Shown one piece after another: positions 718 to 51,562 of a stretch of 64,000 nucleotides of DNA. The notes beneath the pieces are model-generated. The model had not been told where the DNA came from. It did no database searches and saw only the letters and a list, made by a program, of their open reading frames with translations. The DNA lies in contig NZ_AP028634.1 in the NCBI RefSeq assembly GCF_033097485.1, positions 983,126 through 1,047,125 of the forward strand. Reading direction: 5' to 3'. Position numbers and translations under genes: made by a program. The stretch is from Pyrofollis japonicus. GTDB lineage: Archaea > Thermoproteota > Thermoprotei_A > Sulfolobales > Pyrodictiaceae. Position 1 is the stretch's first letter. Each line of letters starts with the position of its first letter.

Positions 718-776
718 GTGATGAACGATTCCGGGCCGAGGATCAACATTCCTATGAAGAACCGTGTGAGGACTGA
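718..776 (+). ncRNA. Box C/D sRNA candidate
   Basis: C box GTGATGA at 718-724. A 12-nt stretch follows, ending at a degenerate D' (CGAG 737-740, or CCGA 736-739). A short AGGA/TCCT hairpin lies in the spacer. C' is ATGAAGA (754-760), followed by exactly 12 nt (ACCGTGTGAGGA) and the D box CTGA (773-776). A TATA-like CATAAGAA at 685-692 sits about 25 nt before the expected 5' end. No terminal stem is obvious. Such RNAs guide 2'-O-methylation by the aFib-Nop5-L7Ae complex. The target was not identified. Confidence 0.5.
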
Positions 777-4465: not shown

Positions 4466-4528
4466 AGGATGAGCCCGGTTTTCAGCTGACCCCTGGCTAC
4501 CAGGGATGAAGACGAGTTGCTCAGCTGA
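4466..4528 (+). ncRNA. Weak box C/D-like element with two hairpins
   Basis: C-like AGGATGA (one mismatch), 13 nt, CTGA (4486-4489), a spacer folding as CCCTGG/CCAGGG, C' ATGAAGA (4506-4512), 12 nt CGAGTTGCTCAG, then CTGA (4525-4528). It resembles the element at 877-942. Against it, a perfect AAAACCG/CGGTTTT inverted repeat (about 4460-4482) overlaps the C box, and TTATAAAA (4455-4462) is too close to serve as its promoter. It may instead be a folded 5' leader. The rest of 4339-4873 shows no gene I can support. Confidence 0.25.
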
Positions 4529-12405: not shown

Positions 12406-12480
12406 CAGAGACGGCCGATGAAGAGCCGTGTTTCATTGAGCCCTAGAATATGGGCTATGAGATTGCCGTGGCCGTCTCTG
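12406..12480. repeat. Long inverted repeat at a convergent gene junction
   Basis: An 11-bp perfect inverted repeat (CAGAGACGGCC at 12406-12416, GGCCGTCTCTG at 12470-12480) encloses a 53-nt loop. The loop contains a second hairpin (AGCCC/GGGCT with flanking TCAT/ATGA). The right arm lies inside the last codons of the decarboxylase gene. The position between the DUF2283 gene and the convergent decarboxylase gene suggests a bidirectional 3'-end structure. The loop also contains weak C/D-like boxes. The rest of 12253-12454 shows nothing else. Confidence 0.55.
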
Positions 12481-12901
12481 AGGCATCTTCCTCCGAGATG
12501 CTGCTTCTATCGGCATAGTGTACTCGATACTTCCTTGGGCGCAGCCTTGCAACTATGTAGTTGAATGCTTTCCATGGATCGCCTCTTTCGCCGCATGTAT
12601 AGACGTCAACTGTTGCGTAACCGTAGTCCGGCCATGTGTGTATCGACACATGGCTCTCAAGGACAAGAGCTATGACAGAAACCCCGCCATGGTGGCCTTG
12701 GAACTTCCAGACCTTTAGATCAACTAGATGCATGTCTCCCGCCTTGGCGGCATCAACTACAAGCTTTCGCAGGAAATCCTCGTTCTCTAGGAGCTCGCGC
12801 TTAACCCCATATAGGTTGCCATACACGTGTCTGCCTATGATGAAATCCTCGTTGCCCTTTTCTGTACCATCGGCCTGCATCTTACTAACCAGCTGGGCCA
12901 C
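12455..12901 (-). CDS. Pyruvoyl-dependent decarboxylase: archaeal arginine decarboxylase or AdoMet decarboxylase proenzyme
   Basis: 148-residue proenzyme of the class 1b AdoMetDC fold. LESHVSIHTWPDYG carries the self-cleavage site Glu82-Ser83, whose Ser becomes the pyruvoyl group, with His88 and Cys103 as processing and catalytic residues. IGRHVYGNLYGV is the conserved N-terminal block. In Thermoproteota, a paralogue of this family is an arginine decarboxylase starting polyamine synthesis. The PDYG-YATVDVYTCGERGDPW segment resembles that paralogue as I remember it, but the sequence alone does not settle the substrate. GTG start at 12901. Confidence 0.85.
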   Translation of the reverse strand: MAQLVSKMQADGTEKGNEDFIIGRHVYGNLYGVKRELLENEDFLRKLVVDAAKAGDMHLVDLKVWKFQGHHGGVSVIALVLESHVSIHTWPDYGYATVDVYTCGERGDPWKAFNYIVARLRPRKYRVHYADRSSISEEDASETATAIS

Positions 12902-43431: not shown

Positions 43432-43707
43432 GGCCTGCCTCCACTAAGCCTACTTGAAAGACGTGGGGCTAAAACTATAGCACCGCCAGTGTTAAGCCTT
43501 GATATCCCCAGTCTGCTCTAAGAGTACCTGGGCTATGAAGAGAGTCATGCCAAAGGAACCCATAGTGGGATGTCTCCCTCCGGGGTAGCTGAGCCCCATT
43601 AAGATGAAATAAAACAATAGCTATATAGTGCCAGGTTGTGAATAGTTACGACTTAACCATTTAAAGATTTGAAAGAGGCTGGGAAGGCCCGCAGCGATGG
43701 ATTTGGA

Positions 43708-43810
43708 GCCGCCGCCGGGATTTGAACCCGGGACCCCCGGCTCCCTCGGAACCCGCGGACACGTGCGGGCGCTTACGAGGCCGGTGCTCTGCCCGCTGAG
43801 CTACGGCGGC
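43708..43810 (-). tRNA. tRNA-Thr (CGU) with a 31-nt intron
   Basis: Minus-strand tRNA of 103 nt. The acceptor stem GCCGCCG/CGGCGGC, D arm, and T arm CCGGG-TTCAAAT-CCCGG are perfect. The anticodon loop is CTCGTAA, anticodon CGT. The intron lies at 43773-43743, after position 37. It is bounded by a canonical bulge-helix-bulge: outer stem CCGGC/GCCGG, central helix CTCG/CGAG, bulges TAA and GGA. Mature length is 72 nt. No encoded CCA. Confidence 0.95.
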
Positions 43811-44884: not shown

Positions 44885-46030
44885 TCATATCTTATTCTCG
44901 GTAACCATTCTGTATTCAAGCTCATCGAGGTTTTCATGTTGCTTTAGCTCTTCAAGCATCTGTTCGAGCCTTTCTTTTTCACGGCGCCATCCTTCAGGGC
45001 ATCCTTCACCGACACGTACCGGTTTTTCGAGCCTGGACAGCAGTACTACTCTGCTCTCTATCTGCTGGGATACTATGTTGTAACCTGTCATTTCGGCAAA
45101 CTTCTTGGCAATGCTTAGTACCTCAATGTGTTTTAGCATGTCATCTCTTCTAAGTCTTTGCCTTGAGGCGCCAACATACATGTAGGATTTCAGCTCAATA
45201 TAGGTTGGCTGTGAAATCTCCACCATCTTTGCCCACGCCTTAAGAGCCTCTTCGTGTATATTGAAGCTGCGGACAAGCGTGAATCGTATTACGGTTGGGC
45301 TAGAGAAACTTGGTAGAAGCTCTAGAGTCTTCATTGTTAGTTCCCAGGCTCTTGGTACAAGTGGTCTATTGAACTTCTCATAGCTCTTCTTATCCCAGGC
45401 CTCAATGCTTATATAGAGCTGTGTTGGCTCTTCCTCAAGGTTTGCTAGGACATCCGGCCTTACACCTCTCGTGACAAGAAATGTTGTTATTCCGCGCTTA
45501 TGGTACTCTTGTATGAGTTCTCCTAGGCGTGGATATAGTGCGGGTTCGCCGGTTAGACTTATAGCTGCGTGGTGCGGGCTCATTGCTTCTTCTATTCTCT
45601 TCCGCATGGCGTCATCCAGCTTTGGGTGTCCTAGGTACCCCATAACGGCTTCTCTGTGCGCCTCGATACTTCCTTCAACAATTAGGTCAGGGTCGTCGAC
45701 CCATGGAAGCTTAGTCTCGTCAAAGGACAGGGTATCTGTGGGGCGTAGGCGCCAGCAGTGTAGACATGCGTTCCAGCACCATAGCGCTGAAGGGGTCATT
45801 TGTATACATCTATGGCTTGCTATTCCGTAGAACTTGCACTTATAGCAATACCTATTTTCAACTATTGCTGCATGGGTCCAATGACATTTCTTGTACGCGC
45901 TATGTCTGCCTATTATTATATAGCCCTGTTTCTCCAGTATACGGTAAAGTGTGCGATAAGGCTCCGGAAAGTCTTCTACTCGGTATCTCCACCTCTTGTT
46001 GCGAACTGTTCTAAGTCTCGCTTCCTGCAT
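44885..46030 (-). CDS. taw1: tRNA 4-demethylwyosine synthase (Taw1/TYW1)
   Basis: 381 residues of radical SAM type. The SAM-cluster triad CWNACLHCWR and an additional Cys-rich KCKFYGIASHRCIQM upstream fit the two-cluster archaeal Taw1. SLTGEPALYPRLGEL and YISIEAWDKKSYEKFNRP are family blocks. It forms the tricyclic base at position 37 of tRNA-Phe from m1G with pyruvate. No fused flavodoxin domain is present, as usual in archaea. Starts at ATG 46030. Confidence 0.93.
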   Translation of the reverse strand: MQEARLRTVRNKRWRYRVEDFPEPYRTLYRILEKQGYIIIGRHSAYKKCHWTHAAIVENRYCYKCKFYGIASHRCIQMTPSALWCWNACLHCWRLRPTDTLSFDETKLPWVDDPDLIVEGSIEAHREAVMGYLGHPKLDDAMRKRIEEAMSPHHAAISLTGEPALYPRLGELIQEYHKRGITTFLVTRGVRPDVLANLEEEPTQLYISIEAWDKKSYEKFNRPLVPRAWELTMKTLELLPSFSSPTVIRFTLVRSFNIHEEALKAWAKMVEISQPTYIELKSYMYVGASRQRLRRDDMLKHIEVLSIAKKFAEMTGYNIVSQQIESRVVLLSRLEKPVRVGEGCPEGWRREKERLEQMLEELKQHENLDELEYRMVTENKI

Positions 46031-46254
46031 AGTAGTATTTCCCCTCTCTACCCGTATTCGCGTGTTAAAATCATGAAAGCATAGTATAAGGCTAACGCAT
46101 ATCCGAGCGCCAAGTGCTTAGAAAATATGTGCTTCATAGTCACTTAATAATGTCTCTTGGCTTAGACTTAGCTCGGGATGAGGATCACACCCTTTAACTG
46201 AGCGATAATGGATAGATGATAGAAGTGGCCAGGACCGACCCGCTATTCATAGAC

Positions 46255-46303
46255 TCAGTATTCCGCCGTCACATCACCACTCGGCTCCAAAGGTCCTCAT
46301 CAT
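46255..46303 (-). ncRNA. Box C/D sRNA candidate, divergent partner
   Basis: Minus strand: C box ATGATGA (46303-46297), 12 nt GGACCTTTGGAG, D' CCGA (46284-46281), 3-nt spacer, C' GTGATGT (46277-46271), 12 nt GACGGCGGAATA, D box CTGA (46258-46255). Both guide lengths are exactly 12. No TATA is seen; it may be cut from the ogt transcript. It begins 5 nt from the plus-strand candidate that follows. Target unknown. Confidence 0.6.
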
Positions 46304-46308
46304 GCAAC

Positions 46309-46364
46309 ATGCTGAGCCAACACCTAGCTGAAGAAGCGGAGGTGATGAATTCCCTGTGGACTGA
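46309..46364 (+). ncRNA. Box C/D sRNA candidate with 16S-like D' guide
   Basis: Plus strand: C box ATGCTGA (46309-46315, one mismatch), 12 nt GCCAACACCTAG, D' CTGA (46328-46331), 10-nt spacer, exact C' GTGATGA (46342-46348), 12 nt ATTCCCTGTGGA and D box CTGA (46361-46364). The D' guide complements CTAGGTGTTGGC, which resembles a 16S rRNA segment of about position 820 (from memory). The element ends 7 nt from the ogt stop. The remainder of 46031-46371 shows no coding gene. Confidence 0.65.
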
Positions 46365-46371
46365 GAAAGAG

Positions 46372-46749
46372 TCAGGGGTCATCTATTACTGTCACTACTT
46401 CTCCTGCTTCTTCCACGACACGCCAAAATTGGTCAACACTTCTTATTACATGTGTGAGTCCGTTATCAGTAATTGCGCCCTCGATTTTTAGTAATTTTTT
46501 CTTAAACTCTAAGCCCCTGCTATAACCACCAAGCCCTGTCTTTGATACGACACGGTGGCATGGAACAACGACTATATCCTTGTTGGCGCGCATATAGGCA
46601 CCTATAGCCCGGGGTGAAGTCCCAGTAAGCTCGGCCAGCACAGAGTAGGTAACAGTATGACCCACAGGGACCAGCATGGTTAGCAAATATACAATTTCTC
46701 TACGAGAATGGGGGTCCTTCCAGCTCACCCTTTCAGCACCCTTAAACAT
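46372..46749 (-). CDS. ogt: Methylated-DNA-protein cysteine methyltransferase
   Basis: 125 residues holding only the C-terminal MGMT domain. VVPCHRVVSKTGLGGYSRG contains the alkyl-acceptor Cys (PCHRV), and PVGHTVTYSVLAELTGTSPRAIGAYMR is the helix-turn-helix that flips the base. It repairs O6-alkylguanine by a suicidal transfer. Short forms like this occur in thermophiles. An additional 35-residue C-terminal helix is not part of the family core. Confidence 0.9.
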   Translation of the reverse strand: MFKGAERVSWKDPHSRREIVYLLTMLVPVGHTVTYSVLAELTGTSPRAIGAYMRANKDIVVVPCHRVVSKTGLGGYSRGLEFKKKLLKIEGAITDNGLTHVIRSVDQFWRVVEEAGEVVTVIDDP

Positions 46750-46891
46750 AGTCAGCTCATCTGCGGGGAGGTCAAGTCATCCCCATATCTTTTCACAGTA
46801 TTCTGGGCACAGGTTTAATCTCTTCACGCAAGGTCCTACCCTTGGCTCCATAGCGTAAAGTATATAGAGGAGGGACCATACTTAGTACCTT

Positions 46892-51378: not shown

Positions 51379-51562
51379 GACCTTACCAAGCAGCGTCGGC
51401 AAAGGGGGAGGAGCTTCATCCCTCGAGGGTCGCCTCGGGGACAGCGTCTCCTCATAACGCCAAGTTGATGTGAATATTTGTAAGGCTTAATATTGGTTTA
51501 ACGAGTATGGGTGCCTATCAGAACGGCAACGTACTTGAAAACGTATTAAGAGGCGCTTAGGC

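Follow-up and report, generated by a model that had tools for sequence, protein, structure and literature searches.

The 64,000-nucleotide stretch of Pyrofollis japonicus DNA analysed in this work, referred to as the window, contains between the ogt and taw1 genes a compact cluster that probably consists of three double-guide box C/D sRNAs on alternating strands, aimed at six rRNA targets and released from two precursor transcripts. The true unit is an interleaved triplet, sR-A (+), sR-M (-) and sR-B (+), rather than a pair. By every feature tested its members are ordinary double-guide C/D sRNAs, and only their packing is unusual.

Organization of the cluster

The gap is arranged in the order taw1 (-), sR-A (+), sR-M (-), sR-B (+) and ogt (-) (Table 1), and the three sRNA genes span about 190 bp. 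The first-pass annotation of this DNA had described two C/D sRNAs on opposite strands between taw1 and ogt, with four guides of 12 nt and with C boxes 5 nt apart. All the boxes of both sRNAs were found again, the guide length was verified box by box and positions 46304-46308 indeed separate the two C boxes. However, the pair was incomplete, as a third C/D sRNA, sR-A, had been missed, the D box of which is separated by 16 nt from that of sR-M. It became apparent as one more conserved block when the gap was compared among relatives. About 7-8 nt lie between sR-B and the ogt stop codon, and in the window 70 nt separate sR-A from sR-B, a space that includes the entire antisense of sR-M. The sR-M/sR-B pair is also unusual in its own genome, these being the only opposite-strand neighbours among the confident predictions of the scored scan described below.

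Table 1. Features of the sRNA cluster and of its flanking genes in the window
Feature	Position	Strand	Evidence
taw1/TYW1, 4-demethylwyosine synthase, downstream minus-strand neighbour	44885..46030	-	TIGR03972 equivalog, 417.6 bits
TATA-like element TTAATAA, putative promoter of the A-B transcript	46144..46150	+	tRNA-trained matrix, 99.93 percentile
sR-A, third box C/D sRNA	46178..46238	+	scan score 41.3, rRNA pairing, conservation (alignment A3)
sR-M, box C/D sRNA	46255..46303	-	scan score 40.2, rRNA pairing, order-wide family
Gap GCAAC, 5 nt, between the sR-M and sR-B C boxes	46304..46308	none	1-9 nt in relatives
sR-B, box C/D sRNA	46309..46364	+	scan score 45.5, rRNA pairing, conservation
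ogt, O6-methylguanine-DNA methyltransferase; probable source transcript of sR-M	46372..46749	-	TIGR00589 and PF01035 above cut-off
Promoter-like sequence GAAGAGATTAAACCT upstream of ogt	46811..46825	-	99.92 percentile with the full tRNA promoter matrix; consensus match only

Box motifs, guides and predicted rRNA targets

The archaeal C/D box order (C RUGAUGA, D', C' and D CUGA) was identified in all three sRNAs. In sR-M the C box ATGATGA (46303-46297) is followed by the guide GGACCTTTGGAG, the D' box CCGA, the C' box GTGATGT, the guide GACGGCGGAATA and the D box CTGA (46258-46255). In the same way, sR-B is formed by the C box ATGCTGA (46309-46315), the guide GCCAACACCTAG, the D' box CTGA, the C' box GTGATGA, the guide ATTCCCTGTGGA and the D box CTGA (46361-46364), and the boxes of sR-A are ATGAGGA (C), CTGA (D'), ATGATAG (C') and CCGA (D). 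Variants of one or two bases are the C box of sR-B and the C' box of sR-A. The former is non-canonical, since C replaces A in the second tandem G.A pair, and a weaker k-turn is expected from this change. A C occurs at this position (ATGCTGA or GTGCTGA) in 9 of 9 g1 and g2 genomes and an A in G013, G015, G007 and G010, and TGCTGA is also present in three other predicted sRNAs of the genome (contig positions 463169, 927821 and 1309901).

All six guides pair over 8-11 bp with rRNA of this genome. The two targets of each sRNA are 25-33 nt apart in a single rRNA, with a Watson-Crick pair at the N+5 position. The D' guide of sR-B forms 11 bp with positions 783-793 of the genome's own 16S and would direct 2'-O-methylation of G787. 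This 16S target had been noticed earlier, from the similarity of the guide complement to a 16S stretch; the target stood, and the match is 11/12, since the 16S stretch ends GTTGGG and not GTTGGC. The D guide of sR-B forms 10 pairs, one of them G.U, within 16S 816-827, from which methylation of C820 is predicted. By alignment, the sR-B sites fall in the neighbourhood of E. coli 16S positions 830 and 859. As regards sR-M, its D' guide forms 9 bp within positions 2470-2481 of the genome's own 23S. Its D guide forms 8 bp (12 bp in a relative) within 2497-2508, and the residues to which 2'-O-methylation would be directed are A2474 and C2501, near E. coli 23S positions 2286 and 2313. Finally, sR-A would direct the same modification of 23S A2015 (10 bp) and G2040 (11 bp).

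The D guide of sR-M is the weakest of the six, and one 16S site is marginally better than its 23S target (8.6 vs. 8.4). One apparent compensatory change between this guide and 23S, ACGG/CCGT in G000 and ATGG/CCAT in G004, supports that the guide is a working one. The sR-M guides match the 23S of G017 poorly, and no good match for the D guide of sR-B was found at the expected 16S site of G007. Targets in tRNAs were considered and discarded, because no guide paired better with a tRNA than with its rRNA target and the sole strong match of this kind came from an erroneous tRNA prediction that extends across 16S. Thus, the comparison of the guides with 16S, 23S and tRNAs that the first-pass annotation had proposed gave rRNA targets for both of its sRNAs. 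From these sequence features we infer that RNA would be produced from sR-A, sR-M and sR-B and that the six residues would be methylated.

Two other predicted sRNAs of G000, at contig positions 1816994-1817049 and 1978847-1978909, are aimed at the 23S region of sR-M, with targets at 2502, which adjoins the 2501 of sR-M, and at 2483 and 2512. Judging from the predicted sites, this region may be a methylation-dense spot.

Statistical support and searches for known families

The arrangement of sR-M and sR-B is more than chance: both were found de novo above decoys and they are conserved in three genera. The scored scan covered 2.0 Mb of genome and asked for all four boxes (C, D', C' and D) together with two guides whose rRNA targets were no more than 100 nt apart. 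With a cut-off score of at least 40, 19 matches were obtained with the real rRNA, whereas three decoy rRNAs yielded 0, 1 and 0, and the three sRNAs were all recovered de novo with the scores listed in Table 1. A scan restricted to Watson-Crick pairs was abandoned, as it yielded 39 matches with the real rRNA and 19-21 with decoys; sR-B was missed by it because of its G.U pair.

In Rfam the three sRNAs were under every gathering score, the best value being 28 bits (sR33) against 37. This search, also suggested previously, was favourable as far as the best full-length matches of each sRNA are archaeal C/D families (sR33 for sR-M, with those 28 bits, and snoPyro_CD for sR-B), but all of them are sub-threshold. 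As most sR families represent one guide set each, this failure counts against the families and not against the class. Alignments of the three sRNAs (A1, A2 and A3) showed conservation of boxes and guides and drift in the D'-C' spacer. On these sequence grounds, the predicted sRNAs are three new members of the ordinary archaeal double-guide C/D class. In g2 (L004, L008, L009 and L010), sR-M has a D'-C' spacer of about 30-40 nt, compared with 3-10 nt elsewhere.

Other predictions were obtained in the window. Further double-guide C/D sRNAs are predicted at 4466-4528 (+) and 51396-51455 (-), with scan scores of 41.0 and 39.3, and also at 12418-12481 (+) and 718-776 (+), with scores of 36.9 and 36.5, a range where decoys also score. 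In addition, 43707-43810 (-) is a tRNA according to Rfam, but not to ARAGORN with default settings; it is 104 nt long and perhaps has an intron.

Distribution among related genomes

Related genomes were searched with models for every one of the three sRNAs. The complete A-M-B cluster is intact in at least 10 Pyrodictiaceae genomes of three genera, five belonging to the genus of the window (G000-G004), four to g2 (G005, G011, G014 and G016) and one to g8 (G013). In every intact cluster sR-A is upstream of sR-B on the same strand. As regards the box spacing in relatives, on which the earlier description had staked its pair, the head-to-head position of sR-M and sR-B is kept in 11 genomes, including G015, where the contig ends, with C-to-C gaps of 5, 5, 5, 5, 4, 4, 4, 1, 1, 4 and 9 nt. 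In g8, ogt and taw1 are divergent, yet the cluster is still at the 3' end of ogt.

Separated by sRNA, sR-A is conserved in g1, g2, g8 and g5 genomes. Named records with the sR-B pattern belong to Pyrodictiaceae, Pyrolobus and one unplaced Thermoproteota assembly, and no copies of this pattern were detected in viral contigs. The sR-M family is wider, with matches across the order and partial ones in family f11. Incomplete or dispersed arrangements were also identified. In G007, sR-B and sR-M are about 540 kb apart; G008 has an A-B same-strand tandem, with 18 nt between both, without sR-M; in G010 sR-B is alone and adjoins taw1; and in G017 and G018 sR-A and sR-M are present and sR-B is missing. 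The sR-B loci of g4 (G007 and G012) adjoin neither taw1 nor ogt. In view of the variants in G007, G008, G010, G017 and G018, A-B and ogt-M seem to be two units, later interleaved.

Proposed transcription and release of the sRNAs

Upstream of 516 divergent ORF starts, the base composition showed a ribosome-binding signal and no TATA position and, as a consequence, the TATA matrix was trained on 47 tRNA upstream regions of this genome. The TTAATAA element is 34 nt before the sR-A C box, and a score as high as its own has a chance level of about 1 in 16 over the approximately 90 positions scanned. Although the TATA assignment is weak in any single genome, a TATA-like site of 97.6-99.9 percentile is present in the same zone before sR-A in 11 of 11 genomes tested. 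No TATA-like sequence was found at the expected place before sR-B or sR-M, the best one on either strand being about the 94th percentile, in agreement with the previous claim that the space between them leaves no room for separate promoters. The ogt gene had also been pointed out as the likely source of RNA on the minus strand, and its stop codon is inside sR-M in G017 and G018: the ogt frame crosses the sR-M C box and the first guide, and stops in the D' box. The ogt protein of these two genomes ends in ...DLWG, encoded by the sR-M C box and first guide (L081 3698-3720 and L203 1635-1657), so that the same DNA serves there as coding sequence and as guide. In the window the ogt frame does not overlap the sRNA, its stop codon being 68 nt before the sR-M C box.

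On sequence evidence, the most likely origin of sR-B is processing of an A-B transcript, and that of sR-M processing of the 3' end of the ogt mRNA. The origin from a longer transcript proposed at first, by readthrough of ogt, is suitable for sR-M but incomplete for sR-B, upstream of which, on its own strand, lies sR-A with the TATA-like element. As the arrangements in relatives suggest, the plus strand would give an A-B precursor from a promoter upstream of sR-A, and the minus strand an ogt mRNA with sR-M at its 3' end. From published biogenesis work, assembly of L7Ae, Nop5 and fibrillarin on the k-turn and trimming of the flanks would then free each sRNA, and with such a release neither of the head-to-head sRNAs would need a promoter of its own. 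In archaea, a TATA-like motif is present upstream of only about 20% of C/D genes, most C/D sRNAs are either excised from a longer transcript or overlap the end of an ORF, and maturation needs intact box motifs only, in any transcribed context (PMC7994747; see also PMC3491384).

The same three sRNAs could also be expressed in a different manner, with sR-A on a transcript of its own and sR-B coming from pervasive antisense transcription or from a weak nearby start. The 70-nt distance with the antisense of sR-M, longer than in a usual dicistron, the persistence of sR-B without sR-A in G010 and the g4 sR-B loci away from taw1 and ogt are compatible with this. However, the A-B tandem of G008 and the constant position of sR-A before sR-B in intact clusters argue for a shared precursor, and we consider separate expression unlikely. 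Less probable still is that the antiparallel packing was itself selected, the two strands titrating or gating each other's k-turn assembly and so coupling methylation of both ribosomal subunits, which would be 16S through sR-B and 23S through sR-A and sR-M. The A-B and ogt-M precursors would be complementary to each other along a large part of the cluster, and there is an inverted repeat at the head-to-head C boxes; as a hairpin, the facing C boxes are unremarkable (-2.7 kcal/mol, z -0.5).

Archaeal TATA boxes are located about 25 nt upstream of the start. Each of the head-to-head sRNAs could therefore physically have its own promoter inside the body of the other, as the TATA position would fall there, but the lack of TATA-like sequences in either zone already mentioned makes this improbable. 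Moreover, before sR-B in the clusters of most relatives the TATA scores are lower (86-99 percentile) versus 99.6 for the TATA-like site of the lone sR-B of G010. Finally, that only one strand encodes a functional C/D sRNA, the other being a chance motif or a decayed gene, was already raised in the first-pass annotation and could be suspected from the non-canonical C box of sR-B and the weak D guide of sR-M in this genome, but it is the least credible option and was rejected, since sR-M and sR-B both score far above decoys, each is conserved alone at unlinked places (both in G007, and sR-M in numerous genomes across the order) and the two guides of each sRNA match neighbouring rRNA sites.

Comparison with known C/D sRNA systems

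The Pyrodictiaceae are among the highest-temperature organisms known, and the cluster adds to their repertoire three guide RNAs and six 2'-O-methylation sites, all of them predicted. The gap has no room for conventional promoters of both sR-M and sR-B, and yet both are conserved, so that the cluster also offers a compact natural test of whether a C/D sRNA can be made by its boxes alone and with no promoter. In addition, the relatives show separate and partial arrangements, from sR-M at the ogt 3' end and the A-B tandem to full interleaving. In the literature searched, with partial coverage, no antiparallel interleaving was found in which 1-9 nt separate the C boxes, and an earlier report is possible.

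The three sRNAs resemble the archaeal double-guide box C/D sRNAs (snoPyro_CD and sR families; Dennis 2015, PMC4644070; Breuer 2021, PMC7994747) in their boxes, guides of about 12 nt, N+5 rule, targets within 100 nt, hyperthermophilic host and absence of their own promoter, and differ from the Rfam archaeal C/D families in guide sequences, all below the gathering scores. According to the part of Tripp 2017 reported in PMC7994747, 25% of C/D genes overlap an ORF 3' end, with the stop codon in the sRNA and often in a box motif. As far as that account goes, sR-M is similar to these genes because of its position at the ogt 3' end and, in G017 and G018, of the stop in the D' box; unlike them, in the window the opposite-strand sR-B lies between the ogt stop and sR-M. 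The cluster is also like those of two or three C/D genes (PMC7994747) in its three clustered genes and in the same-strand order of sR-A and sR-B, but its middle gene is on the opposite strand and, for this reason, its precursors would be mutually complementary.
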